Assembly: GCA_036172665.1 (NCBI GenBank)
Contig: CM069871.1
Span: forward strand, 6,386,001 to 6,450,000
Length of the DNA stretch: 64,000 nt
From: Prosopocoilus inquinatus
Lineage: Eukaryota; Arthropoda; Insecta; Coleoptera; Lucanidae
Direction of reading: 5' to 3'
Shown here: positions 1,286 to 58,072 of the stretch, piece by piece
How the letters are laid out: the number at the start of each line of letters is the position of its first letter
Numbering within the stretch: the stretch's first letter is position 1
Notes under the pieces: model-generated
What the model was told of the DNA's origin: nothing
What the model saw: only the letters and a program-made list of their open reading frames with translations
Databases searched by the model: none
Program-made: the position numbers and the translations under genes

Positions 1286-3750
1286 AAGTTATCATCTGGA
1301 CGTGAATGAAGACGTATATAATTTCCTAGCAGAAGATAAAATCAAATGGCTTTAAAAGAACGAGCCTTAACCGATGGATTCTTGCGGAACTAAATCCGTT
1401 GGAAGTGGAAACAAACAAGAACGAGTTGAAAAAAATTGTTTAGAATAGACAGACAGCGAGAGAAATTACATAAAAAAATTTTGGTATGACTTCTCTTCTA
1501 ACAAACGGTAAGAAAAAAGTTATTTGCTACTGGAGATGGAATACTGGAGGTAGATTAGCTGGAAAGGACTAGGGAAAAAGGATATAATTCTTTAACAAAA
1601 AGATAAGAACGATTGAAGGTGGTTACTTTAAAAGGATGCAACTTCATCCATGGATTGCCTGGTTTATGAAGGGTGATAGATCGCTGGGGGAAATTTAATC
1701 GATTGGAAATGGAGACTGGAACAACAAAAATGAAAGTGAGTGAGAAAGTTGAGTAAAATAGAGAAGGTAGCAATCCCAAGAACACGAACAAAAATTCTGA
1801 AACGAATTCATAACCATTATTTATTTCTCTCTTTATTGGTGCTTAAATGAAATGGATTTTTACGCTAATTTTATCAGATCCCTCGGTGGATGGTAAACGG
1901 AGTTTTTCCCCTTCGTTTTAATAAATAATTTAATTAAATTTAACATCTCGCATTTTTATTCATGGGTAATTAGTTCATCAATTCTCTCGATTTTATAAGT
2001 CGTCACACCAAAATCAGAATCCAGTTACTGCAACGACGTAGTGGCCAGGGATTATTAGACGATCACGACAATAATATTGTATAAGTTTATGATTGGGGTT
2101 CTCTGGAAGATTGCAGATTCGAGTAGCAGGTAAAGTAATTTGTAGGTTATTAGAGCATCCCCTCAACGCCAGGCAATAATCCCTAGGTAGAATAGACCTA
2201 GACTTGAAGTAATAAAACTTTTGTGACCTTTTTGAAGACCCGCAGGCCCATGGTTAAATGCATTGATTTCTTTCCAAATTCAGAAGCTAAATTTTCGAGA
2301 ATTTTCGACTTTTCACTATCGCTTGATAAAGCCGAACCCACACCATCGAGTAAGACTAAAGTGGGTTAGGTTAACCGTTCGGCCACTTGACCTGCTTAAA
2401 AATGGTTGGGAATCTCTGACTTGAACCACGTTATTTATTACAAGAAGCAAATGTAGGTTGTCCTGCCGTTAAATTTTCATTAGTCATGACCCTCAAAATA
2501 TGGCAATTGGCCTCCCTGCGAGTTTTATTTTGTTTTTCTTTGGTATTCACCGTGTGAGCGGAACTCCCATATAATTTCAGTGTTTATTTATTTCACTTAA
2601 GTATACTTATGCTGAAGTTTTAGTGCGTTGTCAAAACGAGCAGCATTCATTTATATTCACTTCCGTCGAGAAAGCATCGTTTTGATTGCGGTAAGCGTTC
2701 CTAATCTATTAATCAAAGTAAATTTATGACGAGTGTTATTGCATTTATGAGGTATGAAAATATTCAAGCATTCCAAATCCGTCCCGTTTTCATCAGGCTC
2801 CTGCCGCTGCAGCAACTTATGAAGATAATTAATCGGTATCGTTAAAGCTGCTACGCTTTTTAGCCTCAGCTTCTTCAATAACAGAGAAATTGTTCTGCGA
2901 AGTTGCTAAAAACCGTGAGGTTTTTAGTTATGTCTTAGTAATCGCAAAACTCGTTTTGTTAGTCCACTTCGGTGTATATAATGTTGCTCAATAACCGTTT
3001 AATTGGATTACTCTTTTTAATTGCAAAAAGCCGCCTGCGTTGTTTACTTCTTGGTAAACAAAAAGGTAGCTTTAAAGTGTGGCTCCTTAAAAAAGTTAGC
3101 GCGCTTGTTGCAGCTTTTTTTTCTCTCGCTTTCTTCCAAGGCGTACAGAATTCCTGAGGTGGTAGTTCCAAGGAATTGCATTTATTATTTTTTTTTTTTA
3201 ATTCAGTTCTGCTTTAATATTTTGCCTCAGTCTCAAGTGCAAGTACTAATCGATCCTCTACTTACTTAAAATATTTATAAACCCAACTGCTTGAATTTTT
3301 TTTATTTTCCTCAGCTCGATGGGTCTTTAATTTATAAAATAATACCACTTGATTAGTCGAGTTTTTTTTTTTTTGTTTTGGGGGCCGATTTCTAAAGGTA
3401 TTTTAATTAGCTATAAAGTAGTATGACGCACTGAATAAAGACCGGATTTTCTAGGTTCCTTTGCGCTAATTATAAATTTAATCAATCTCGAACGACGCCG
3501 CAAAGAAATTTCAGACAAAAACTAGGCAGGGAGAGACAACTTTGCTTGAACTTGTTGTAATTAATATTTGGTGTGGTGTTTGCGGCTGACTTTTACTTTT
3601 CATTCAGGAATAAAATTCCCTGCAATTTTAGCCCAAGTTTCTTCTTCTTGTGATCTTATCTATACGATATCCAAAGGCATCATTGAAAACTAATACACTG
3701 CCGCTACTGAAGAAGTAAAACACCCGTTTCAGAATGAATGGAAGAGTCTA
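1286..3750. other. Featureless intergenic DNA
   Basis: About 2.5 kb without a supported gene. Open frames on either strand stay at or below 82 codons and look like composition artefacts. A GGGGCCGATTTC string near 3381 resembles the end of the MITE family seen at 6.7 and 29 kb but has no partner end. Several poly-T runs are present. Confidence 0.4.
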
Positions 3751-3797: not shown

Positions 3798-5042
3798 TAA
3801 TAGGCAAGCAAGGCAATCTTTGTATGGAAATAAATGACGGGTTTTATTTTACACGATCGTCTTCAAATTACAACACGCTCTTAGGCTATTTTCGTATACC
3901 CGACGAGCAAATTTAATATTACGAATAACCAATGATGGTATTCAAACCCTCGCAGAATTACACACTGCGTCTTCCATCTTGTTCCGGATGAAGATATTAT
4001 CCTTATTCACTTGTCCAGTTTTTCACGTAATCACGTGTTTGCACCATCTCATGATATTCCATTAAAGCCAAACGAACAGATTCTATTTGATCGGCTCGGC
4101 GCGATGAAATAATAATTTTATTCTTGTTGTGTCATGTACCCTTGTTATGTACGGACTTAAATTCCGCGAACAATTCGCTCGTAGCGCACACGTGTGAAGA
4201 AAAGATTGTGCGATATTTTATTGCTCGCCTGGTATTCAACGAACCAAAGTCACTTTGAGCTAAACATTTGTCTAGTGGTAACGTGCTTGCATGTACATAT
4301 ACATACATTAGTTTATACAATAATGGTAGTCAAGTTATGTAGTCGTATATCCTAGGTAAGTTTTGCATACATGTGTATGTGCTAGACAGTTCGAAAGAAG
4401 ATGGAAAATCGTTATAATGCAGAAGCATAACGTGGCTGGTATGTTCGGATTTAGAAGCTTTCAATCATAAAAAAAATGTTTGGTTGCAAAGATTAGCAAG
4501 TTCTTGACATTTCATTTTCAGTTTCAGGGGCATATAACTTAACTAGACTCTAACGCTGACAATCTGCAAACAGGAGGAAGGAACGATATTAAGTTGGCAA
4601 CCTGAACTTGAGCTCAAGTTCCGTACTCACACACAAACACAAACGAACTCCTACCCCGTTAACTATGGGTCTGTGCGTTTGTTGCACTAGTGTACACTCA
4701 GACTATGTGTGTCTTGTTCTAACCTCATACATTAATACGAGATGAAAATATTTTGAGTGCAGACTAGTGCAATAAACGCGTGATAAACGAACAGACCTTA
4801 TATCTTCTACATAGTACTCTGATGCTCATTTTAATCGTGACGCCTTAAAAACTAGAGGTAGGCAACCCAATCTACATCTCTGTGTTAGTACATGCCACGC
4901 CAACTTAAAATGGGCAGCTTGTATATAGCTTACCATCCAGCTCTTTTTATATGTACGTTATATTAATAGCGCACTAATTTATATAATTTATTCAAATATG
5001 TTGGTTGTTTCTTTTGAGTTGTTTGCTCACAGAAAATGTCAA
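3798..5042. other. Intergenic DNA with a loose inverted repeat
   Basis: No gene is supported. Around 4666-4796 there is an imperfect inverted repeat (GGTCTGTGCGTTTGTTGCACTAGT against ACTAGTGCAATAAACG and GAACAGACC), possibly an old MITE. The rest is unassigned. Confidence 0.35.
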
Positions 5043-5056
5043 AGGTCTTGAAAATG
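5043..5056 (+). repeat. 14-bp target-site duplication, left
   Basis: AGGTCTTGAAAATG, repeated exactly at 5412-5425 on the other side of the foldback element. Confidence 0.7.
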
Positions 5057-5411
5057 GTTGAATTCTTAGCTTTCGGTGGGAATCGCGTGACTCGGATGTC
5101 TTCTACTTCCTCGGGGCTGCTGCTGCTACTGCTGGTGGTGGTCTTGCTGCTGCTTCTTGTAAGTCGATGAGTTCTGCTGGTGGTGCTGTTGCTGCTACTG
5201 GTAGTTTTGCTTCTGCATCTTCTAAGTCGATGAGTCTCATTCATTCACCTACAAGAAGCAGCAGCAAGACCACCACCAGCAGCAGCAGCAGCCCCGAGGA
5301 AGTTCTTCTGCAAAGAAGAACGAAACGTCGGCAGTAGAAGAAATCCGGAACATGCGGTTCCAACTCTAGAAGCCAAGAATTCAACCATGGACAAGGGCCG
5401 CGGAAGCCTTC
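5057..5411. mobile_element. Foldback element with decayed hammerhead half (Penelope/retrozyme-like)
   Basis: The 355-bp segment lies between perfect 14-bp direct repeats. Its two halves are inverted copies. The left half runs from TTGAATTCTTAGC through TTCTACTTCCTCGGGG into a GCT/GGT-rich arm (5109-5161). The right half mirrors it (arm 5250-5299, then TTCTTCTGC and GAACGAAACGTCGGC, then GCCAAGAATTCAACCATGG). The GAAACGTC core at about 5323-5330 is the 3' half of a type I hammerhead, but the CUGANGA half is degenerate (CTGCAAA) and the left arm has lost this part. The block from GAACGAAACGTCGG to the GAAGCCAAG/ATTCAA motif is shared with 16.73-16.83 kb, which supports a common family. Ends read CCGCGGCCCTTGTCCATGG on the minus strand. 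Confidence 0.65.
5109..5299. repeat. Trinucleotide-rich hairpin, arms of about 50 bp
   Basis: Arms 5109-5161 and 5250-5299 are reverse complements apart from a 3-bp indel, and consist largely of GCT and GGT triplets. The loop of about 88 bp carries two copies of TAAGTCGATGAGT (near 5161 and 5223). The serine-rich minus-strand frames over this stretch result from the triplets and are not called as genes. Confidence 0.85.
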
Positions 5412-7079: not shown

Positions 7080-7345
7080 ATGGACATTATAACGAACATT
7101 TTTTTTTAATTACGCTTTTGAAACATGACAGACTTGTGGAAAACAAAAGAAAATAGTGGACATCAAAGGAATAAAAAAAATTGTTAGAAATTTTGTGAAA
7201 AGTCTTTTCGTGGAAAAACGAAAGAAAGTTGTAGGCATTAAATTATTTTACGATTTTCGTTATTTCGACATCATAGAGCGTAATTTTGGATCGAATAAGG
7301 AAAGGAATGCAAGTTGGTCTCTGGAAAAGCAAGAACTCCAGGTCT
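7080..7345 (-). pseudogene. Second decayed cytochrome P450 fragment
   Basis: Reading the minus strand from about 7345 down, a conceptual frame gives TWSSCFSRDQLAFLSLFDPK then LRSMM. This is comparable to the W-R-x-M-R...L-S-P-A-F...K-L-R-S-M segment of CYP9/CYP6 proteins (helix C region). Further down, KRLFTKFLT resembles the K-D-x-F-T-K-F-T-N block. Stops and frameshifts interrupt it. Its 5' flank (7300-7420) is homologous to the 5' flank of the better copy (7950-8070), so the two appear to be tandem duplicates. The call rests on short motif matches and could be wrong in detail. Confidence 0.4.
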
Positions 7346-7435
7346 TCAAGTTGCCTTTAATTTTGTTTCCCTATCGAAAACATCAAATTTTTCCTCCCTG
7401 GAAAATGGTAATCGAATAAAAATAAAGAATGCAGA

Positions 7436-7990
7436 TTGATCTTTAAAGTGTCTCCAGCTTTACCATCATCTTGCTTGACTCTGCCCTTTCTAGCTTCCAT
7501 CAACAGCTGGAGCATATCCTGTCTTACGATGCCCTTTTCTTTTCGCAACTCCATCGTTTCTTTGACGACGCGAATAAAAAAGTCGTTCACCCTTTTCGGA
7601 AACAACGTCAACGAGGAATTTTAACTTGATTACCACTTAAGAAGGCGTACGTTAATTGACTCATCATAGCTGGCATAATCGGAATAGTGCAGCGAAAGCC
7701 AAAAATCGCAATGTCTGGGAGAATCTTGGAACAAAAGCTCGTCAGAAATTCGTGGCGTCTCTTTCCTTAATGTAAAATTCATTGCTGGGGTCTTCCAACG
7801 AATCACACTTAATGCCAAAAGAGGCAGGTCGCTGTGACGTCATTGGTATACTTTGTGAAAGTATCTTTAAGCTCAAGCTCGATGACGTCGTCGTGCTTGT
7901 CCAAGGAATACTGGCTATATTGCTTTGCGCACTCGGAAATCAATGTGAAGATTCAAGAATGTCAGAATGTAGATATTTCGGAACTCCAAG
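7436..7990 (-). pseudogene. Cytochrome P450 pseudogene fragment, CYP9-like
   Basis: Cytochrome P450s are ER-anchored haem monooxygenases; clan 3 members (CYP6, CYP9) in insects often oxidise xenobiotics. Read on the minus strand from about 7940, the frames give ISECAKQYSQY, ELKDTFTKYTNDVTATC, a frameshift, SFGIKCDSLEDPSNEFY, DATNF, a stop, RFLAFAALFRLCQL, two stops, then LFPKRVNDFFIRVVKETM and GIVRQDMLQLLMEARKG (near 7500-7611). These correspond in order to helix C-G of CYP9-type proteins, roughly residues 130-290 of about 500. The haem-binding cysteine region, I helix and N-terminal anchor are absent. At least one frameshift and three stops make it non-functional. The family call is confident; the subfamily is not. 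Confidence 0.8.
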
Positions 7991-11621: not shown

Positions 11622-11900
11622 TCAACTTAAATGACTCTTGTACAACGAATTAAGGGTCATCGTATCGTCCGTCTCAACACCGGACGACGAGCAAGATTCA
11701 ACACCATAAGTGCTTTGAAATTTGTTTTGGTGTGACGTCATAAATACTGTGGCATAGTGACATCGTAATTGACGATAACCAACGTGTCCCAGAAACCCGT
11801 TAACTCGCTGATTAATGTTCTTGGATTTAACTTTAAGTGCATTAGTTATAATTTGATTCACGGTTAGGTTAATCGAGATACTCGAATATCTACTGTTAGC
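11622..11900 (-). repeat. Repeat family F, 3' part, copy 1 (open frame)
   Basis: This segment is an inverted, diverged copy of 19395-19720. The minus-strand frame 11622-12005 reads through it without a stop; its conserved part spans from INLTVNQII near 11870 to DTMTLNSLYK near 11635. Shared blocks with the other copy are VNGFLGH, VFMTSHQNKF, STYGV, SCS and SGVET. The upstream third of this frame lies in the unrelated end of the 11904-18806 element, so the full 127-codon frame is not one protein. I do not recognise the product. It may be a former coding exon of a transposon or simply a repeat that stayed open. Confidence 0.5.
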
Positions 11901-12639
11901 TAGCAGGGCCGGCGGAAGGCGGTAAGCAAGGTAAGCAAGGCATGAGAGCGCAGATGCAAGAGGGGCGCTAAAACGATATAAAATTGCCAACTCTATCCAA
12001 CCCAATTGCCACAGCAGAAACCGCCCACGCCAATTCCGTCCAAATTAAAATTATTTTTTCATCACAAAAAAATCAAAACAAAATACGACAAAATCGGTTT
12101 CCAAGTCGACGCACCGCGAAATTTCTGAATCGACAATAATTATAAAAATTAAAAGTAAAAAATGTTGTAAAATTAAAAATTAGTTAAAATATAACTTAGT
12201 CAATCTCAAAGTCATCCCAATTCAATTAAACTCAATCTAACCGTATTTAATCGAAGCAACAAGTTTAAAAAAATTAATAAAATATATTAATTAAAAATGA
12301 TCAAAGCGCAGCTCGAATAATCTCAAGCTCTCGATCCAACAACTGAATTCAGCTCTATTTAACACAAGCAAAAATTTGAAAATAAAAAAAAAACATAAAA
12401 GAATTAAAATTCCATTCAACCCATGTAACAAATTAAGAAAAAGAAATATGTATTAAGAAAGCAAAAATGTGAAACTAAAGCTCAACAAATTTCAAGGTCA
12501 ATCTTACTCGACTGAACTCAACCTAACCGTAACTCAATTGAAGCAAAGCATTTAAAATGCAAAAAAATTCGAAAAAGGCGAAGTCCGACCAACCAAACTC
12601 GACCCAACAACTGAATTCGATTCCGTTTAATGCAAACAA

Positions 12640-12800
12640 AAAAAAAATTAAAGTCGATTCTCGTCCGATGAAAATTGTAAGTAGTAAATGGTTTTAAAAC
12701 TATAACCGGACAGAATTATAAATGCAGAAGCACTCAACGTTTCACTACCGATTGAAGAAGCTATCGGTGGATTAAAACATTAAAAACGCAAAAAGAATAG
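12640..12800 (+). mobile_element. Degraded foldback hammerhead relative
   Basis: It shares TCCGATGAAAAT, GTAAGTAG, ACCGGACAGAA and CACTCAACGTTTC with the ribozyme-bearing element at 32.77-32.97 kb, in the same order. The ribozyme region is eroded: TTGAAGA stands for CUGANGA and TTAAAAC for CGAAAC. A still shorter remnant lies in the opposite arm at about 17985-18055 (reverse orientation), so the insertion predates the inverted duplication. Confidence 0.55.
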
Positions 12801-12897
12801 AAGTAAAAAAATAAAATGAAAAAGCATTTCGATGTCAACCCAACCTAACTGCACTCTAGCCAAGTAAAAAATTTAAAAGTAAGTATTAATAAAAAGT

Positions 12898-13986
12898 TGC
12901 TAGGACCTTCGCAACAATTGACTATCTCTCGCGTGTTGTTTGTCGCGATCGGGACGGTCGAACCTACCTGTGTGTGGTCGGAGGGCATTCTCTCGCAAAG
13001 TAGTGCCCAGCTCAGGGAGACGGTCGTGGGTAATAAAGTTACGCGGCGAGATAGCCGTAGCGATACACTCCGACAGGGGAGAAGGGGCGCCACCTAGTGT
13101 AGCTTTGCGAGGGAGTGAGCTACCAAATACTTCGCTAGGAAAGTATTCGGGTCCCACAGTGAGGTTCAACTCTAAAGGTCCCAGGATCTTTCTCAATAAA
13201 CCCAAAAGGTTCACTTTCCCCGAATGAATCCCCAAAAGAAAAAAAAAAATAAATCCGTACGGGTATATATCTATTGCCACAATAGATTGCACAAATAAAA
13301 TGTGGCTTGCCTAACGGTAGGCTGATACAATGGTACGGATGGTACCCGGTTATGCGTTACGCGATGGATCCAAGCGTTCGCCTTACATGTACAGGGTGGA
13401 TTAATTTCGATGTCTCTTATGGGCATCTCCGTAAGTATAACAGATAGAAAAAAACTAGTGGCCAAGTCTCGATCTCTTTTTTGGAGATTAAGTCAATAGT
13501 GTAAACAAAAATTGGCTATCTTCTTTTGTTTTCAAGTTATGGCCAAAGATTGACATTTTCGACTTTTCGTTTTTCGGTCATATCTCGTTTATTTCTAGAG
13601 GTATTAAAAAACTGTTTGATCATTATTAGGACACTTTTTGGAATTCAATTCAGTGGTGTAGTTGCTTTTTTAATGTTTACTTAAATTTTCAAGTTATAAC
13701 ATAAAGTTATATTTTTTTAAATAGAAACCATAGTATGCAATGCCCTCATTAAATAGAGATTTTTTTCTGTTTTCAAAAATATATACTTTGTTGGGAAATG
13801 ACCAAGCAAGGTACGTACAACAATTAGATAGAAAGCGAGTACACGAGTAACATTTGCACAAATACGCCCTGTGAAAGACATCCAGCGTAACCAAGACAAG
13901 GGGGAAGAAGTGTAAAAACGGATCTGGAACAGAAGAAGAAAACACAGCCTGACCGAAACGGAGAAAACGACAAGCCGAATGTAACA
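12898..13986 (-). mobile_element. Candidate solo LTR, about 1.09 kb
   Basis: This GC-richer block interrupts the left arm relative to the right arm. Read on the minus strand it starts TGTTACATTCGG and ends GGTCCTAGCA, giving the TG...CA termini of LTR retrotransposons. It is flanked by AAGT on both sides (12894-12897 and 13987-13990), a 4-bp duplication as Gypsy-type integrases produce. The opposite arm continues without it. No gag or pol remnant is present, hence solo. Minus-strand frames of up to 130 codons within it are not recognisable proteins. A TGGCGCC string near 13090 is not at an LTR edge, so I do not treat it as a primer-binding site. Confidence 0.55.
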
Positions 13987-14234
13987 AAGTAAAAAAAATG
14001 GATTAAAATGAAACTCAACAAATCTCAAGGTGAACTGAACTTATCTCATAGTGCACTCACTCCATTCTACACAAGCAAAGTAAAAGAATGTTAAAAAAAA
14101 TATATACATGGTTTACAGTTAAACTCAGCAAATCTCAAGGTCAATCCAACCCAACTGGCATCAACCTAATTTCATCTGACGCAAGTAGAAGAATAGAAAT
14201 TACAAGAGAAATTAAAAGATTAAAAAAGTGATTG

Positions 14235-14553: not shown

Positions 14554-14730
14554 TCAAAAATCAAAAACGATTTACAACAATTTTTTTTTAAGTTTCATTA
14601 TGCGTTGACGGCAAGCATGACCGCCTTGCATGGGATGACTTATTATGTAACAAACTGGCTTCAATTTGTAAATTCTAATGCAATGTTAGGTCAAAAAGCG
14701 ACTTGAGGATGTCGATGTTTAATGAATTTG
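14554..14730 (+). repeat. Ribozyme-element body, old copy (R1)
   Basis: It contains AAAAACGATTTACAAC, CATTATGCGTTGACGGCAAG, GCATGACCGCCTTGCATGGG and CAATGTTAGGTCAAAAAGCG, matching the body of the 313-bp unit at 17579-17760 with clear divergence. There is no ribozyme next to it. Confidence 0.7.
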
Positions 14731-15894
14731 TACTTCTTACCTTGGATGCATTCATTCATTGATTCATTCATTCAATCAAGTGACTGCAGACAGACGATTA
14801 ATGAAAACGATTAACCCTTGACTTTGAACTTTGATTACCCAAGAATTTCTGGGTTACTCGATGAATGATGTAAATGGGATGCAAATGGAACTTAAGGTCG
14901 CCGCACAGACAATCCAAAAGAAGTCTTTAAACTTGGAAAAAAATAAATTTGAACTTCGCGATTGCAATTCAAATTTCGTTCGTGATGATTTCATCGGATC
15001 GAGTTGGTTGGTATGCATTGTGTGATGGTGAAAACTGCTCTGCTTTACCTTCCATCGAGCAGATCAATTCTTAACGCTGCGTTTTCTAAGCCACCATGTT
15101 ATTACCCTAGATTCACGTGTGTACAGATTTATGTCTTAACGTTAAGAGGGCACGATGTGGAACACCGGTCGTAAACAAAAATTCTGCTGAATTATTATTC
15201 TTCAGTGCATTTTGCTTCGTTTCTTGCGACATATGTGGACTGTCGTTCGGTCGTAATACACGAAACTAGGTTTATATCACGAAACTGGATGTAAAAACTG
15301 ACCGGCTCCAGTTTTTGTTTACCGTAATTTGCCGCAATTACCGTACTGGTTACGGATTTGCGATGATTTCATCATCGCAATAATAATTGTTGAAAACGTT
15401 TCTTTCTTACTTTCCTGCATAGATCAGGTTTCATAAAAAACCTTTGCATCTTCATATACATATGTGGATTTAATTTATGTGCGTGCGTGTGTGTGTGTGT
15501 GCATACGTGCGATATGAGTTATATTAACCGCTTAATGTTTCCGTGGTGCATAAACTATCGGAAAACGTTAACTTGCAAGCGCTCTCTTCAACTTTATTTG
15601 CTTTCGTTTCCAGTGCAACTACAGAAGATTACATAATCATCACCGGCTTAATCAAATGCATGAGTTGCATAACGATTATGGTTTCAATGTATATGGGTGT
15701 TCCATAAATAATCTTCAACAAAAAAGGCTCTCTGTAAAATAAGACCATAACCTCGCAGAAACAAATTGGTTTTAGGTATTTATGTTTGAGCTTTCGATTT
15801 TCCTAGCATCACGGAATGTGCTTTTAAACCTACGTTGCATAAAAAAAAATGTAACCCGGAATTAAATTAAACCTTGTACACTCTGGCATGCCTG
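14731..15894. other. Spacer of the inverted complex, no gene
   Basis: Single-copy AT-rich DNA between the two arms. It contains an ATTCATTGATTCATTCATTC run near 14752-14778 and a GT microsatellite at 15486-15502. A 64-codon frame at 14831-15025 is unconvincing. Confidence 0.4.
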
Positions 15895-16826: not shown

Positions 16827-17094
16827 TTTTTTTTAATATTTTAATTTCTCTTGTAATTTCTAATCTTCTACTTGCGTCGGATGAAATTAGGTTGATCCTA
16901 GTAGGGTTGGATTGACCTTGAGATTTGCCGAGTTTAACTTTAAACCATGTATAATTTTTTTTATATAACGTCTTTTTTTACTTTGCTTGTGTAGAATGGA
17001 GTGAGTGCAATATGAGACAAGTTCAGTTCACCTTGAGATTTGTTGAGTTTCATTTTAATCCATATCTTTTTACTTTATTCAATTTTTTTAATAC

Positions 17095-17235
17095 TTGTCG
17101 TAAATTTTTTAAAAAAATTTGTTGGCCGCCTTGCATGGGGGACTTATTAGGAGCAAATCCGCTTCAATTTGTCTATTCTACTGCAATGTCAGGTCAAAAA
17201 GCGATAGTAAGATGTCGCTGTTTTATCTATTAAAT
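17095..17235 (+). repeat. Ribozyme-element body, fragment R2
   Basis: GGCCGCCTTGCATGGGGGAC, TTATTAGGAGCAAATCC and CAGGTCAAAAAGCGATAGTA match the unit body at 17640-17735 closely. It lies immediately outside the left edge of the intact element and lacks a ribozyme. Confidence 0.75.
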
Positions 17236-17273
17236 TCTTTACTTGGCTAGAGTGCGATTAGGTTGGGTTGACA

Positions 17274-17287
17274 TCGAAATGTTTTTC
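17274..17287 (+). repeat. 14-bp target-site duplication, left
   Basis: TCGAAATGTTTTTC, repeated exactly at 17922-17935. The empty site in the inverted arm near 12814-12828 reads GAAAAAGCATTTCGA (reverse complement with one extra base). Confidence 0.85.
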
Positions 17288-17478
17288 GAACAGATAAAAT
17301 TGCGACATCTTACGATCGCTTTTTGACCTGACATTGCAGTAGGATAGACAAATTGAAGCGGGATTTGCTCCTAATAAGTCCCTCATGCAAGGCGGCCATG
17401 CTTGCTGTCAAAGCATAATGAAAGATTTAGAAAAATTTTTGTGCAAATCGTTTTTGATTGCAGTGAAAACCTCGAGCA

Positions 17479-17527
17479 GCCTCTGGACAGCTGTTTCAGC
17501 CCTGCTTGGGGCTTCTTCAGCAGAGAC
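17479..17527 (-). ncRNA. Type I hammerhead ribozyme (minus strand)
   Basis: This is the exact reverse complement of the plus-strand ribozyme at 17826-17874. In minus-strand order: stem I strand GTCTCTG, core CTGAAGA, stem II AGCCC/GGGCT around a CAAGCA loop, core GAAA, stem III palindrome ACAGCTGT (sharing its first A with the core), cleavage base C, stem I strand CAGAGGC. All invariant core bases are present. Self-cleavage is expected after the C following ACAGCTGT. Confidence 0.85.
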
Positions 17528-17825
17528 GTAGCTCGACATTCCCACTGCAGATCAAAAACGACTTGCCCAAATTTATTCGCAATCAAAAACGATTTGCACA
17601 AAAATTTTTCTAAATCTTTCATTATGCTTTGACAGCAAGCATGGCCGCCTTGCATGGGGGACTTATTAGGAGCAAATCCTGCTTCAATTTGTCTATCCTA
17701 CTGCAATGTCAGGTCAAAAAGCGATCGTAAGATGTCGCAATTTTATCTGTTCATCATTCTTACATCGCATTTGCGAATAAATTTGGGCAAGTCGTTTTTG
17801 GTCTGCAGTGGGAATGTCGAGCTAC

Positions 17826-17874
17826 GTCTCTGCTGAAGAAGCCCCAAGCAGGGCTGAAACAGCTGTCCAGAGGC
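17826..17874 (+). ncRNA. Type I hammerhead ribozyme (plus strand)
   Basis: Stem I is 17826-17832 (GTCTCTG) with 17868-17874 (CAGAGGC), seven pairs with one G-U. The core CTGAAGA is 17833-17839. Stem II is AGCCC (17840-17844) with GGGCT (17851-17855), loop CAAGCA. The core GAAA is 17856-17859. Stem III is the self-complementary ACAGCTGT (17859-17866), so within one molecule it has no loop and would form best between two ribozymes. The predicted cleavage is after C17867. Short palindromic stem III is known for hammerheads of Penelope-like elements and animal retrozymes, where dimers are the active form. Confidence 0.87.
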
Positions 17875-17921
17875 TGCTCGAGGTTTTCACTGCAATCAAA
17901 AACGATTTGCACAAAAATTTT

Positions 17922-17935
17922 TCGAAATGTTTTTC
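17922..17935 (+). repeat. 14-bp target-site duplication, right
   Basis: TCGAAATGTTTTTC, identical to 17274-17287. Confidence 0.85.
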
Positions 17936-18810
17936 ATTTTATTTTTTTACTTCTATTCTTTTTGCATTTTTATTTCTTTAAGTAATCGACCGATAGATAA
18001 AGACCAATTACTTACAATTTTCATCGGACAGGAGTCGACTTTAATTTAATTTTTCTTCTGTTTGCATTAAACAGAATCGAATTCAGTTGTTGGGTCGAGT
18101 TTGGTCGGTCGAACTTCGCCTTAATCGTTTCTTCATTTCTTACATTTTCTACTTTTAATTTTTTGCATTCTAAATGTTTTGCTTCAATTGAATAAGGTTA
18201 GGATGAGTTCAGTCGAATGGAATGACCTTGAAATTCATTGAGCTTTATTTTCACATTTTGCTTTCTTAATAAATATTTCCCTTTCTTAATTTTTTACATG
18301 GATTGAATGGAATTTTAATTTTCTTAAAGTTTTTTTTTATTCTAAAATTTTTGCTTGGATTAAATAGAGTTGAATTCGACACTTTGAGATTATTCGAGCT
18401 GTGCGTTGACCTTTTTTAATTAACATATTTTATTGTTTTTTTTTTAAACGTGTTGCTTCGATTAATCGCGGTTAGATTGAGTATAATTGAATTGGGATTG
18501 ACTAAGTTATATTTTAACTAATTTTTGATTTTTAATCTTATAACAGTTTTTACTTTTATTTTTTTTTAATTATTGTCGATTCAGAAGTTTCGCTGTATGT
18601 CGACCTTGGAACCGATTTTTACCTATTTTGTTTTGATTTTTTTGTGACAAAAAAAAATAATTTTAATTTGGACGGAATTGGCGTGGACGATTTTTCTTGT
18701 GGCAATGGGGTTGGATAGAGTAGGCAATTTTATACGTTTTGTCGCCCCTCCTGCACCTGCGCCCTCATGCCTTCCTTACCTTGCTTACCGCCTTCCGCCG
18801 GCCCTGCTAG

Positions 18811-19435
18811 TAGTTATGTACAATCATGCTTTTTAGTAATGACTACTGCAATAGGTAGACAGATAAGCAATCGAGCAAGCAGGTAAACAAACACAAAATT
18901 AAAATACGAAACGAAATTCAAAAAAGATTTGAGTTTTCCATCGGCACACACACAAAAAAAAATTTTTATTTATTATTCCGCCCTGAGATAAAACATTCAT
19001 TTAGACTCGCGACGCCAGCCCACATAATCCTATACCTCATCTTAATATAACAACTCCTTTGTCAGATGTCGTGTTACCAGACGAAATATGACCTGCTTCA
19101 TAGGTTCCTATCTTACCAGTTAAGTTAACGATACACGAACTGCACTTTTCCATCTTGAGAAACTAAACTGCTGATTGATCAGACGGAGCTGGAATTTTCC
19201 CATCCATCAGAGTTAAAAGTTGGAATTCAAAGAAGTAATAGCTGTTCGGAGACCTCGTTTAACCTAACTTGAAGATAACGATACAACTTTCTGAGCACTG
19301 CGCTTTTCCTTCTTGAGAAACTAAAACTGCTGATTCAACAGATGGCGCTGGAATTTTCCATCAAAATTAGGAGTTGCAATTCGAAAAAAACAATTAGCTA
19401 TTCGAGGGCCTCGATTAACCTAACAGTGACTCGAA
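18811..19435 (+). repeat. Repeat family F, 5' part, copy 3, with 170-bp tandem units
   Basis: The first part (18828-19200) is the direct counterpart of 15895-16720 without the MITE. From about 19106 a unit of about 170 bp occurs twice (19106-19275 and 19276-19435). Each has TTGAGAAACTAAA(A)CTGCTGATT, then CAGACGGAGCTGGAATTTTC or CAGATGGCGCTGGAATTTTC, and ends with CCTCG and TAACCTAAC. The AACAGATGGCGC string links it to the arrays at 9.6 and 61.8 kb. Confidence 0.75.
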
Positions 19436-19779
19436 TTATAATGAATGCATTTAAAATTAAATCCAAGAACGTTAATCAGCAAGTAAACGGGTTTCTGGGA
19501 CACGCTGGATATCCTTACCTACAACATCACTATGCGAGAGTGTTTATGACGTCACATCAAAATAAATTTCCAAGTACATATGGTGTTGATTCTTGCTCAG
19601 TGTTTATGACGTCACATCAAAATAAATTTCACAGCACTTACGGTGTTGATTCTTGCTCGTTGTCCGGTGTTGAGACAGTCGACACGATGACCTTTAGTTC
19701 GTTGTACAAATATTTGCTCGGTAAGATAAATCCTTGTATTTTTTTAAATTCTTCTCTTCTTTATCAATATATTTGTTAA
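19342..19779 (+). CDS. Unrecognised ORF in repeat F (145 codons)
   Basis: The frame opens in the second 170-bp unit and runs through the F 3' part. The region after residue 25 aligns with the minus-strand frame at 11622-11885: shared blocks are INLTV, VNGFLGH, VFMTSHQNKF, STYGV, SCS, SGVET and DTMT. A 60-bp in-frame tandem duplication (19540-19599, 19600-19659) repeats VFMTSHQNKF to DSCS as 20 residues. By hand count about 12 of roughly 29 codon differences between copies are silent, more than chance but far from strong constraint. There is no signal peptide, membrane segment or known domain. It may be a remnant of a transposon protein; expression is unproven. Confidence 0.3.
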   Translation: MALEFSIKIRSCNSKKTISYSRASINLTVTRIIMNAFKIKSKNVNQQVNGFLGHAGYPYLQHHYARVFMTSHQNKFPSTYGVDSCSVFMTSHQNKFHSTYGVDSCSLSGVETVDTMTFSSLYKYLLGKINPCIFLNSSLLYQYIC

Positions 19780-21766: not shown

Positions 21767-22240
21767 AGTATTCGCTGCCAGAACTTAAAATAAAATGCTC
21801 TTTACGTATAGTAGCCCCATTTTAAATTGGTTTTTAGTCTAGGACCTGAGATTTATAATTTGATTTTCGACACCCAAAAAGTACTCGCTGCCAGAATTAA
21901 AAAATTAAATAAACTAACTCTTCATGTATAGTAGTCCCATTTTAAATTGTTTTTTTTTCTCTAGGACCTGAGATTTATAATTTGATTTTCGACACCCAAA
22001 AAGTATTCGCTGCCAGAATTAAAAAATAAACTAAAATAACTCTTCATGTATAGTAGTCCAATTTTAAATTGTTTTTTTCTCTAGGACCTGAGATTTATAA
22101 TTTGATTTTCGACACCCAAAATGTACTCGCTGCCAGAATTAAAAAATCAAATAAACTAACTCTTCATGTATAGTAGTCCCATTTTAAATTGGTTTTTACT
22201 CTAGGACCTGAGATTTATAACTTGATTTTCAACACCCAGA
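21767..22240 (+). repeat. Minisatellite, four units of about 120 bp
   Basis: Units start at about 21767, 21880, 22002 and 22122. Each has AGTACTCGCTGCCAGAATTA (or ATTCGCTG), CATGTATAGTAGTCCCATTT, a T-rich tract with CTCTAGGACCTGAGATTTAT and GATTTTCGACACCC. Units 2-4 are very similar and the first is the most diverged. Confidence 0.93.
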
Positions 22241-53770: not shown

Positions 53771-56321
53771 TTGTTGGAACTGAACTTTCTTTCTGCAAAG
53801 CTTTTATTATCTTCATGATACATCTGCACGTGCAATTTGCGAACAAGAAAAATATGTTAATGATGACAACATTCCGGCACTTACCAAAGCGCGAGCATAA
53901 GGTTTAATGGACGACGTGCGAGATAAGAGGAAGACAATGCGAATAAATCAATCCGGTGATTCTCGTCGCTCATTGCGAGATATGCGTAAGCTCCGTTAGT
54001 TCTTAACGGCATCCAGAGAGACCACTGATTAATCTTCTTTGCAAAACGCGACTGTAAATAATACGTCTCAATACGACAGAGATTCATCTAGGAAAGTACA
54101 GCTAAGGCTAAGCATCCACATCTGCATTTAAGACGTTCTTCATCTTCAACAATGGACAATGTGATTCCTGTTCAAATGATGAAATGAAACTTTGGTTTAG
54201 AAAGTGAAATGCCGTGCCGGAGGACTTTGTCCTTCCTTCCCCTTCCCCCCTCCAAAAACGAAGGCTTCACAAATAACACTACCCAAAGCACGGAAAAGGT
54301 ATTGACTTTAACGTGCTATGCGTTAGAATTCGATGTTTGGCAGGCAAATATAACCGCCTTGTAGTTTGTAATATGTTCTATTTGATTAACAAAGAAACGC
54401 TTTTATGGGAAACACCGTAGACTTTACACAACAAATTTACTTCCACCGCGGCGGCCTAATCCCAAAGCACACAATAACTCCCCGTTTGCATTATTTTGTG
54501 TTCCGATGCAATAATACAGAAGACGGAATCTCATGAATTTTATATTCGGAATGAATTAGTTTCCTGCACCGCATTACAAAAAACGACCAACGACGAGGAC
54601 GACGAGTAATAATCAGATTTATTTTCTTGTTGCTGTGCTCCCCCCCTCCCCCCGCCTTTTCATAACGAGAGTAAAATTTAGCTCAATAAAATCGAACGTT
54701 ACGAGAATATTTATTGTATAACCTAGCCAAGGACGTTAGAGGTAACGCATTCACTACTTAATGATGAGCACTAACCTACTACAGAGTGTAGCTACGCAAG
54801 TATGTAAGTAAGTACATTTTATATCTTGTGTATACGTACATATATACAAACTGGATATAAGTAAGTAGGTAGTCCACCCAACAGTAATTCTTGAATGCAG
54901 AGCGACCGCAATCTAGTTACCGATTAAAGTACCCTAAATTCGCATTCGCATTCGCATAATCATAACACCCATTGTGGATTGCCATAATGAAACAAACCTG
55001 TCGGAACCCGGTGACACACTGTCAATTGTGTCGTCAGAAAAGTACCGTCGCAGTCGTAATGAACGCTAAATTACTTTAGTAACTCATTTTCAAGCAAGTC
55101 TATAAACTGTTGTTCATAATGATAAGACAAAACAGGTTGCTGTGTTTAATTGAATATGCAAAGATATTTGTGTGTGTGTGTAACACTTACGTTCTTGGTG
55201 ACATACTGAAGAAGTCGCCCGGTAAATAAAAGTCCCGTTCACTTCGAAATTAAGCACGACATTCAATTATGGTATCGTTCGCTCCTATAAGGACCACGAA
55301 ATTATTACCGAGTGGTCGCATTTTAGGCGGTCGCGATTGTACATCTGGGTTCGATTTTTGATTGATCAAACTAAACTCGGTTTAATACAACACAATAACG
55401 CACAAAAATAATAATGACACATTTACCTAGATATAAAGTTTATTAAAAAACTTAATTAAATCTACTACTACTATTTATATGTTGTATTATATATGTTATA
55501 TTTTGACCTGTCCTATGTACATGTTGGTTTAAAGGACTAATGAAGATTATGATTATGAAATCGATGACTATGGTAACCTGCCTGCCGCACTCAATTTGTA
55601 TCAAAATTGATATAAAATTTAACGACGTGTCATATGGGCCTCCCTGTATCATGTATACTTCTGTTACCTTTCGATTAAAACAACGATTAGGAGATAGGAA
55701 AGAGACAAATTATTTTTGAACTGAAAAGTCCTAGTGAAGAAGAATTTATCTTTCCCCTAAAATTCTAGAAAATTTCCAAAAAAATGTTTGCAACAACTTA
55801 TTCAGAAATAATTATTAAGTAAAAGCGTTTTAATTAATAATTTAATTTTTTTTATATAAAAATACATATTGTCAGTATAATAGTTTCCAGTTGCTTTAGG
55901 TCAACGATCCTTAAACTGTTGCAAATAATGATCGCAGTTCAAAAATATAAAATATGATTTTGTTGTAATAAGAAATTATTAAATACTAAGAGATAGTGAC
56001 TTGCCAGAAACTTTTCTTTAACGAAAAGACTTTCGAGCCCCCAAACTGTCACAAACTTTTGGAACCACTTCTCCTCAATGGTCTGAAAATTGTTTTCTTT
56101 TTTCTCCAGCCTGCTGTTTACTTGAAAAATGTTTCATTATGACTTCATTTGATGCTTACGACTCGTAAATGACTTTTGATTAAAAAGAGTTTCACTTTCT
56201 TTTTAATTTTAGGGAAATCAAGTTATGCATGAAGCTATATCACAATTTTTTTTTTATCTGTATTTTTTGTTACCCAATTAATAATAATAATATTTTATTT
56301 TGAGTTTGCTTGAACTTGGTT
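53771..56321. other. Intergenic DNA, no gene seen
   Basis: About 2.5 kb. Includes a C-rich tract at 54638-54657, ATTCGC triplication near 54938-54957 and frames of at most 68 codons without motifs. Confidence 0.4.
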
Positions 56322-56550
56322 TACTTGAAACCGAGTTTTTCTTCTTTAATTTTCCAACAGTTTCTAAAATCACTAAACTCAGACTTTTTGTTTTATCTAA
56401 CCGACGCATAGTCCAAAAATTAAACCAGTGGTTCCCAAACTTGAAACTGAATTTTTCTTCTTGAATTTTCAACAGTTTCTAAAATTATTAAACCCACGCT
56501 TTTTGTTATTTATTTAAGCGACGCATTGCCCAAAAATTAAACCGATTCTC
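56322..56550 (-). repeat. Two tandem units of about 115 bp, third copy at 57626-57742
   Basis: Each has TTTTTCTTCTT, AATTTTC, AACAGTTTCTAAAAT or CAATTTCCAACAT, CGACGCAT and CCAAAAATTAAACC. Copies 1 and 3 are followed by GTGGTTCCCAAACTT or GGGTTCCCAACTTTT, a hAT-type end motif. Confidence 0.8.
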
Positions 56551-56559
56551 CAGACCCCT

Positions 56560-57010
56560 TTCCATCCATCTTCTTCTTTCTATGCTTTCTTTTTTCCATT
56601 CTTACTTTATATGCTTCTTAATAGTATTTTATTTCCTCTCATCCTCATGACATACCCAAACCATCCCAATTATCCTTCCTCTATTGGAGATTGAATTGGT
56701 TTTGTCTGAAGGTTCTCCCTATAAATCGTAATAGTATTATCCACCTTTGTTATTCCTTCTTCGGCCCTTTATATTTGAGCTTTAAAGTCGGAAGTAAGTC
56801 GAGTTGCCCTCCTGGTCTTTTTTCGAAGCGTTTTTCCATCCTCTCCTGTTCTACGTCCTTAGTCTATTTCTCAATCAATTTGGTGCCTTCTTTTTTCGGC
56901 TGCCTTCCCTGCGTCTTTGCTTTTTTCGTTTTCTTTTTCTTCTTCTTACTTCTTATCGTTTTGTCCCCTCCCATTTTCATTACCTGCCCAAATCACTTCA
57001 GTTATCCTTC
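56560..57010 (-). pseudogene. LINE C-terminal scraps (two copies)
   Basis: On the minus strand at about 56625-56675 one frame reads LGWFGYVMRMRGNKILLRS; at about 56950-57000 another reads WAG/FGQVMKMGGDKTIRSK. These match the W-[FY]-G-H-V-x-R-M...GRPR region downstream of the reverse transcriptase in several LINE clades (RTE, CR1 and others). They are too short to assign a clade. The plus strand is C/T-rich, giving spurious Phe/Ser-rich frames (for example 56691-57056). Confidence 0.5.
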
Positions 57011-57190
57011 TATCTTCCATAAGAGCTTGGTTTTATTTGGCTGGTTCTCTCTGTAGAAACAGTTTTTCATTTCATTCAACTTTGTTTTTTCCTTTACCTC
57101 CCCAAGGACTTCACTTTGGCACTTTATAGTTGTTTCTTTTTTTTTGTAGCAAATTCATTAAATATTTCAAGCGTGTGGCAGCACTAAGTT

Positions 57191-57630
57191 CTTTTGATTT
57201 CGATCGTTAGCGTTTCTCTTCCTACCCCTTCTCGTTCCTATCCTCAAGTAAGCACCATATCTTTCTCTAAATCTTCCTGTTAGCTTTGGCCTAGCTTCAT
57301 TGATTTGCCTTTCGGCTTCATCTTAATTGTTAGAAAAGCGTGAGTTCTAAAGACTCTTCCAAAATACGTTCTTCCTACGAGTGAATGCCAAATTTTTTTT
57401 TTCGATCATTTTCGTTTAATTTCACTTCTTCCCTTCCTGATTTAGACTCTTCTCCCTCTATTATTTCCTTTGATGCATTCTTTTTCGTCTTCGTTTTCGA
57501 CTAAGCGCTTAAATCCTTTGGATTTCGATCGTTCTTGATTCCCTTCCTACCCCTTCTCGCCTCTGTCCTCAAGTCACTTCTTTTCTTAAACCTTCTTGTT
57601 AGCTTCGTTGTAGCTTCAAGTTTCCAACCT
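57191..57630 (-). repeat. Diverged two-unit tandem repeat, about 326 bp period
   Basis: TTTCGATCGTT, CTTCCTACCCCTTCTCG, TCCTCAAGT and CTTGTTAGCTT(C/T)G occur in order near 57200-57290 and 57525-57615. Confidence 0.7.
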
Positions 57631-58072
57631 AAAACTGAGTCTTTCTTCTTTAATTTTCAACAATTTCCAACATTATTATACTGAGACGTTCTGTAATTTA
57701 TCTAAGCAACGATGCGTTGTCCAAAAAATAAACCAAGGGTTCCCAACTTTTTTAAGCTGGATTTATTAACTGACGTTCTCGTAAGCCTTGAAGTACAAGG
57801 TTTTAAATGAGATTTATTTGATTTTGAGAAGTTATAATAAGAGAGCCATAATACTAAATAAAATATTGTTTGACAGTGTGGCCGAAGGGACCCGCATTAA
57901 ATAAAACAACCTTTCATCGACCCCTAGAGGTGCATCAACCCCATTTGAGTTCCCATCGATCTCGTTGGGATTGCCACAATTGAACAAAAAAAGCCTTCGT
58001 TTATGCGAATAGAAAAAAAAAACATGTTTCGATAAGTTTCTCACATTATAATTTAGAGTTTCCACTTTAGAC

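Follow-up and report, generated by a model that had tools for sequence, protein, structure and literature searches.

The window analysed here is a stretch of 64,000 nucleotides from the beetle Prosopocoilus inquinatus (C3:6386001-6450000 of a 650-Mb genome in 173 contigs), and it contains an insert of two divergent arms of a repeated unit, with one hammerhead motif in each arm. Window positions are used throughout, and unit coordinates refer to a 312-bp majority ruler. The features of the locus are as follows.

17274..17287, no strand: left copy of the 14-bp target-site duplication TCGAAATGTTTTTC
17288..17921, no strand: whole insert, two divergent arms of a putative retrozyme, 634 bp (boundaries from BLAST and the target duplication)
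17288..17582, minus strand: minus arm, starting at unit position 193, outward end at about unit position 174 (end type B)
17579..17921, plus strand: plus arm, starting at unit position 1, one full unit, outward end at about unit position 30 (end type A)
17579..17582, no strand: central junction 193|1, 4-base overlap GCAA/TTGC
17479..17527, minus strand: type I hammerhead of the minus arm, predicted cleavage between 17486 and 17485, identical to the plus copy
17826..17874, plus strand: type I hammerhead of the plus arm, predicted cleavage between 17867 and 17868 (Rfam RF00163, 25.8 bits)
17922..17935, no strand: right copy of the 14-bp target-site duplication TCGAAATGTTTTTC
12772..12879, minus strand: empty (pre-insertion) site in the inverted arm of a larger host repeat (99/109 columns; inverted repeats I17 and I19)
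17123..17239, plus strand: older one-armed unit fragment (unit positions 64-183) in the left flank of the insert
14557..14747, plus strand: older diverged unit fragment (repeat families D2, D8 and D10)

An earlier note on this DNA had described two hammerheads in inverted 313-bp units between perfect 14-bp repeats, with an empty site near 12.82 kb, and all of this held up. The two hammerheads are identical over 49 bases, the direct spacing of the units is 313 bp, and the inverted arms match over 174 nt at 99% and over 162 nt at 98%. The flanking copies of TCGAAATGTTTTTC are exact and enclose exactly 634 bp. When the flanks were joined with a single repeat copy and compared with the reverse complement of 12772-12879, 99 of 109 columns matched. 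A mobile hammerhead element between exact target duplications, with a surviving empty site, is therefore confirmed, and the recent mobility that the note had suspected was borne out as well. The host of the insert is a large diverged inverted repeat (11638-14227 and 16829-19709, ∼79-95% identity in collinear pieces). Elsewhere the window holds a tandem array of a 120-bp unit (21786-22238, 3.8 copies) and a segment with strong GC skew (-0.27) and AT skew (-0.27) at 56001-58000.

The unit has a GC content of 43%, and the longest open frame within the insert is 104 aa, with no coding capacity for a reverse transcriptase plus endonuclease that would make the insert itself a Penelope-like element. 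A Pfam scan of eight window frames gave no match at E≤0.01, and no long direct terminal repeats of the window copy were listed beyond the 41-nt unit overlap. Since release of a unit requires two cleavage sites and the window copy has one ribozyme per direction, this copy by itself is predicted to be unable to release a unit-length circle, whereas multi-unit copies such as L009 could do so.

The hammerhead motif has a CUGAAGA plus GAAA core, its stem III is short and its cleavage site is of GUC type. A long hairpin encloses it (z -8.8 against 200 shuffles), and we predict it to be a type I hammerhead ribozyme. With the Rfam model Hammerhead_1, the plus copy (17827-17873), scanned within a 121-base stretch, scored 25.8 bits (E 1.1e-4) and so stayed under the gathering score of 34. 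The scan of the whole window yielded no match at gathering scores, and a scan of 6.5 kb at E≤5 returned ten sub-threshold matches of miRNA, snoRNA or sRNA type and no hammerhead; the motif of the window copy surfaced in the 121-base scan only. The earlier note had regarded covariance scores under threshold as evidence against a hammerhead, and formally the window copy falls on that side of the line. This sub-threshold score is not decisive, because hammerheads of the same genome pass the cut-off (at least seven, among 74 scored of 83,220 candidates), and of two older relatives of the window unit that have the flank GCAATCAAAAACGATTTGC in common, L050 passes (36.3 bits) and L055 lies just below (33.7 bits). 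By reading, the first pair of stem II in the window copy is A-U, where a G-C pair is expected in a hammerhead, and this likely accounts for the low score.

Among the other hammerheads above the cut-off, L052 and L053 have the same flanks, while L048, L049, L051 and L054 fall outside the window family and have in common a downstream motif like AATCGAAACTGACTTGCAACTA with small changes; these four perhaps represent other retrozyme or Penelope families. Across seven loci and the window, 93.7% of the pairing cells could pair, as against 29-52% for slid versions, and stem I shows changes on both sides at three of its six pairs. The covariation score of stem I stands out, being reached by 9 of 500 shuffles, but the number of pairs with two-sided changes is not exceptional (reached by 282 of 500). 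The hammerhead and the rest of the unit did not differ in conservation (33/1,645 versus 210/9,275 cells, p 0.59).

The element is abundant. Exact matches to the 31-base ribozyme core number 12,493 across the 650-Mb genome (6,195 and 6,298 on the two strands), while the reversed pattern, used as a genome-wide control, gave 0 matches. The first 100 of the core matches by position form 73 clusters, in which the order of neighbouring cores can be read free of BLAST query bias. Of 27 such neighbour pairs, 21 were in the divergent '-+' order, four were '--', two were '++' and none was '+-'. A single exact core made up 50 of the 73 clusters, a figure that counts exact cores and not short or mutated arms. 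The head-to-head layout is common in this retrozyme family.

For the architecture of individual copies, we read the window copy and 39 other loci (one of them extended), which were the best 40 of 1,428 BLAST candidates with the window element as query. These loci hold 45 parsed clusters, of which 44 entered the duplication test, and collapsing five same-site pairs left 40 distinct insertions. BLAST pieces below 84% identity and clusters with fewer than 150 matched bases were excluded from parsing onward, which removed older fragments in L013, L018, L022, L024, L028, L030 and L037. Because the query is itself two-armed with the centre 193|1, the set over-samples both of these properties.

The two arms are oriented with the unit's 3' side outward, and their outer ends fall into two classes, A at unit position ∼27-39 and B at ∼168-175 (mostly 171-174). 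These classes were assigned by hand, with the target overlap also subtracted by hand; for L017, L019, L028b and L030, which have no clean duplication, they rest on the BLAST ends. One A and one B end were found in 31 of the 40 insertions, two A ends in one (L020) and two B ends in none (binomial p 8e-9 for 31 of 32, in this hand-classed and query-biased set), and either arm can be the A arm. The other eight insertions are one-armed (L045, L046 and L047), rearranged (L042) or have an end fitting neither class (L027, L032, L035 and L036). The units, 312-313 bp long, may stand in tandem: L009 has seven full plus units and one partial unit, and L056 is also a multi-unit array.

The inner junctions are variable, often with microhomology. 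Among the 34 junctions listed for the 36 two-armed insertions, the join 193|1 carried by the query recurs 11 times, at different sites. Of the other 23, 15 overlap by at least 2 bp (6.7% expected), three overlap by 0-1 bp and five contain inserted bases.

Several loci have a history of their own. L010 (C4) and L011 (C2) agree in flanking letters and duplication, with one versus two full units in the minus arm, so that either the unit number changed or the locus was duplicated. In L023 and L025, and again in L026 and L038, the retrozyme occupies the same site in repeated host copies. The frames near these retrozymes resemble a Polinton-type DNA polymerase; two of them were scanned, with no Pfam match. 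Because same-site copies lie beside such frames, some retrozyme copies may have spread together with a host element. L032 contains, beside its rearranged retrozyme, an open frame (1423-1899, minus strand) that matches Parvo_NS1 (E 1.7e-17), a parvovirus-like fragment. In L028, two retrozymes (4584-5224 and 7278-7553) have an RCC1-repeat frame in their vicinity; among PDB entries this frame matches HERC2 best (3.8e-65) and plant UVR8 nearly as well (1.1e-60).

Exact target duplications of 12-14 bp flank 28 of the 40 insertions. A duplication score of at least 9.5 was reached by 30 of the 44 parsed insertions, the five same-site pairs included, and by 1 of 383 mismatched flank pairs. We aligned the sites of 27 insertions with exact 12-14-bp duplications. 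These sites are rich in A and T and approximately symmetric: A occupies +3 and +4 in 20 of 27 each, and T occupies -5 in 19 and -4 in 23 of the 27. Both ends of these insertions consist of unit sequence at the two preferred positions, with no added A run. At end A, the target often shares a long overlap with the RNA (11 bases in the window copy), in contrast to end B, where 20 of 27 overlaps span 0-3 bases, and base pairing with the target may therefore help at end A.

Next, the arms of single insertions were compared, with 32 of the 40 distinct insertions entered and arms compared in 31. The median divergence was 1.4% between the arms of one insertion and 4.4% between different insertions. 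The partner arm was the nearest relative in 13 of 31 cases, with L019 (rank 25) and L016c (rank 16) as counter-examples. Rare variants are shared as well: A11G occurs in both arms of L012 and elsewhere in one unit of L041, and the pair A9G and A10G occurs in both arms of L014, but its two members occur only singly in L040 and L037. In L009 there were 0 differences over 7,936 compared sites within arms. The low divergence and the shared rare variants suggest that both arms were usually copied from the same RNA species. Such a shared template would fit one RNA circle, and a homogeneous linear multimer would be compatible too.

The same genome harbours a candidate partner, a Penelope-like element for which the domain evidence is a GIY-YIG endonuclease within an open frame (PF01541, 33.5 bits against a cut-off of 22.6). 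All 150 candidates scored, out of 2,232 in a first look, exceeded the cut-off, and open frames of up to 788 aa surround the endonuclease in five rows. Where two GIY-YIG hits lie within 10 kb of each other, 47 of 48 pairs are in the '-+' order, one is '--' and none is '+-'; 55 of the 150 hits have no scored neighbour within this distance. The four partner insertions that we read, chosen among the short ones, are all head-to-head palindromes with 98-99.5% inverted identity, and in each of them one arm bears a tail of ∼37 nt that is absent from the other. Target duplications measure 15 bp in L057 and 12 bp in L058, and at least 12 bp in L059 and 9 bp in L060, the last two meeting the edge of the locus. 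Reading by eye placed a hammerhead-like core at the beginning of the partner frame, with the ATG in stem II; Rfam returned no hammerhead in the partner at E≤1. From the predicted cleavage site to the two ends, the distances are 48 and 85 nt in the partner and about 57 and 197 nt in the retrozyme. Downstream of the hammerhead, retrozyme and partner were compared twice: a weak common motif close to the first end is no more than suggestive (p 0.031), and the other comparison was null (p 0.82). On these sequence grounds, the insertion footprint of the retrozyme appears to match that of the GIY-YIG Penelope-like element, in line with the link to Penelope elements and retrozymes drawn in the first interpretation.

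In the portions covered of Cervera and de la Pena 2020 (PMC7229834), metazoan non-LTR retrozymes are low in GC and free of LTRs; they carry a type I hammerhead in a unit measuring a few hundred bp, form tandem arrays from dimers up to multimers and have target duplications above 4 bp. The beetle element agrees in each respect: it has the type I motif, 312-313-bp units in up to seven full tandem copies (the published range being repeats of ∼150-450 bp as dimers to multimers), low GC with neither coding capacity nor LTRs, and duplications of 12-14 bp. It differs in that it usually consists of two divergent arms with two preferred ends and 12-14-bp duplications, while the words 'inverted' and 'head-to-head' have 0 occurrences in the main text of PMC7229834, as far as covered, and in that a candidate mobilising element can be named here. 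Among the open-licence papers listed in our literature search, none describes head-to-head retrozymes in its title or abstract opening. Plant LTR retrozymes (PMC4918200, covered in part) are likewise hammerhead retroelements with a circular RNA, a circle that would have to be assumed here; they differ in their type III ribozymes, LTRs, 4-bp duplications and Gypsy-type mobilisation (PMC7229834 and PMC7761336, in part). The W-elements of Schistosoma (PMC8490949) resemble the beetle family in their satellite-like repeats, functional hammerheads and hints of target duplication, and the portions covered of that paper contain no two-armed insertion rule.

The closest likeness in insertion structure is to GIY-YIG Penelope-like elements, namely those of Adineta vaga (PMC3846280) and Poseidon of Anolis (PMC11167929). 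The parts of these papers covered describe inverted head-to-head pseudo-LTRs, an optional tail of 30-40 bp on one copy, target duplications at AT-rich targets and a hammerhead upstream of the end. The retrozyme similarly has head-to-head arms with outward 3' sides and two alternative 3' ends, normally one per arm. In contrast, it is non-coding, its ends lie ∼140 nt apart as against ∼37 in the partner, and its hammerhead is a full type I motif, where Penelope elements are reported with a minimal form. The earlier note had singled out the head-to-head arrangement as the unusual part, and this did not stand: the arrangement is common both in the retrozyme family and in the Penelope-like element of this genome, and PMC3846280, in the part covered, already reports inverted pseudo-LTRs that come with short duplications and of which one inverted copy may bear a 31-bp tail, head-to-head being the commonest inverted arrangement observed.

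We therefore regard the beetle element as a probable non-autonomous metazoan type I non-LTR hammerhead retrozyme that would be inserted by a Penelope-like enzyme through two-sided target-primed reverse transcription, a reading to which we assign a probability of about 0.82. Its scope is one genome, and its end rule comes from the query-biased, hand-classed set. The mobilising enzyme would be the reverse transcriptase plus GIY-YIG endonuclease of the Penelope-like element, and the endonuclease would leave 3' overhangs of 12-14 bases at an AT-rich, roughly symmetric site. Each overhang would prime directly on retrozyme RNA, one at site A and the other at site B, and on a circular template copying could proceed round several times and give tandem, near-identical units. 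The two cDNA 3' ends would then anneal by a few bases and be filled in, producing a head-to-head array, and hammerhead cleavage of tandem transcripts would supply unit-length RNA. Since both cDNAs would be primed on sense RNA and meet head-to-head, this two-sided model needs no antisense template, whereas PMC3846280, in the part covered, proposed self-priming on one. The head-to-head layout is best explained by this mode of insertion rather than by any requirement for a ribozyme on each strand. Overall, the first interpretation was partly supported, in its hammerheads, duplication, empty site and Penelope link, and not in what it made of the inversion.

Other origins of the two-armed structure were weighed against the same data. 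Ordinary twin priming by a LINE also yields inversions with target duplications, and a reverse transcriptase frame that we took for a LINE (RVT_1, in L017) exists in this genome. It is nonetheless very unlikely that a LINE enzyme mobilises the retrozyme, because both ends of the 27 aligned insertions are unit sequence at two preferred positions with no A run, and because the GIY-YIG element shows this two-ended structure too. On the surface, inverted repeats flanked by a target duplication look like the terminal inverted repeats of a DNA transposon, yet the outer ends are two different unit positions, the arms differ in length (up to seven full units), the centres vary and the longest frame of the insert is 104 aa; that a DNA transposon or a simple genomic inversion made the palindrome is barely credible. 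An assembly artefact was also judged unlikely, given insertions with different flanks, duplications and an empty site. More weight, though still a low probability, goes to a heritable palindrome, an inversion that arose once in a head-to-head element which now transposes itself and has its centre copied along. The centre 193|1 does recur at 11 different sites in copies from ∼93% to more than 99% identical to the consensus; however, the query over-samples this centre, for which reason we dropped its recurrence as proof. The other 23 listed centres differ, most of them with microhomology, and the 193-arm terminates at A or at B, depending on the insertion.

The more serious competitor keeps the Penelope machinery and replaces the circle by a linear multimeric transcript, which we consider unlikely on balance but distinctly less so than the heritable palindrome. 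Multi-unit arrays exist in the genome (L009 and L056), and in the covered part of PMC11167929 unprocessed RNA was the dominant substrate of the Penelope enzyme in vitro. On the other side, near-identical arrays with an insertion's own variants (L009, L014) fit copying of a circle, and animal retrozymes are reported as abundant circles (PMC7229834, in part); with both observations a homogeneous linear source would also be possible.

The two-sided insertion by a Penelope-like enzyme thus preferred here can be set beside the biochemistry of PMC11167929, as far as its covered portions go. There, a purified Penelope enzyme was shown to cut both strands and extend them, from two start sites that lie within the RNA and bound or match the genomic tail, and it did not need hammerhead cleavage in vitro; completion of the insertion is left to additional steps awaiting experimental validation. 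No difference in start site between the strands was seen, so that these data do not predict an obligate A/B rule. Furthermore, the start site of the Poseidon enzyme was not homologous to the cut DNA, while end A of the retrozyme often overlaps its target. A more far-reaching proposal, which we hold tentatively and at slightly less than even odds, is that such retrozymes depend as obligate parasites on Penelope-like elements and that a single symmetric mechanism inserts both. A dimeric enzyme would cut a roughly palindromic AT-rich site, the resulting 12-14-base 3' overhangs would have to start at two different sites of one RNA circle, and the cDNAs would each travel round the circle and finally meet by microhomology, with no separate second-strand step; head-to-head arrays would therefore arise directly from insertion.

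As movers of animal retrozymes, Penelope-like elements have been named as strong or likely candidates on the basis of co-occurrence, shared type I hammerheads and tandem copies (PMC7229834 and PMC7761336, in the parts covered), and here the insertion scars of a retrozyme match those of a Penelope-like element of the same genome. This would turn a published suspicion into testable evidence, in which each step gives a numerical prediction, and both the two preferred ends and the place where the arms meet are relevant to the completion of Penelope insertion.
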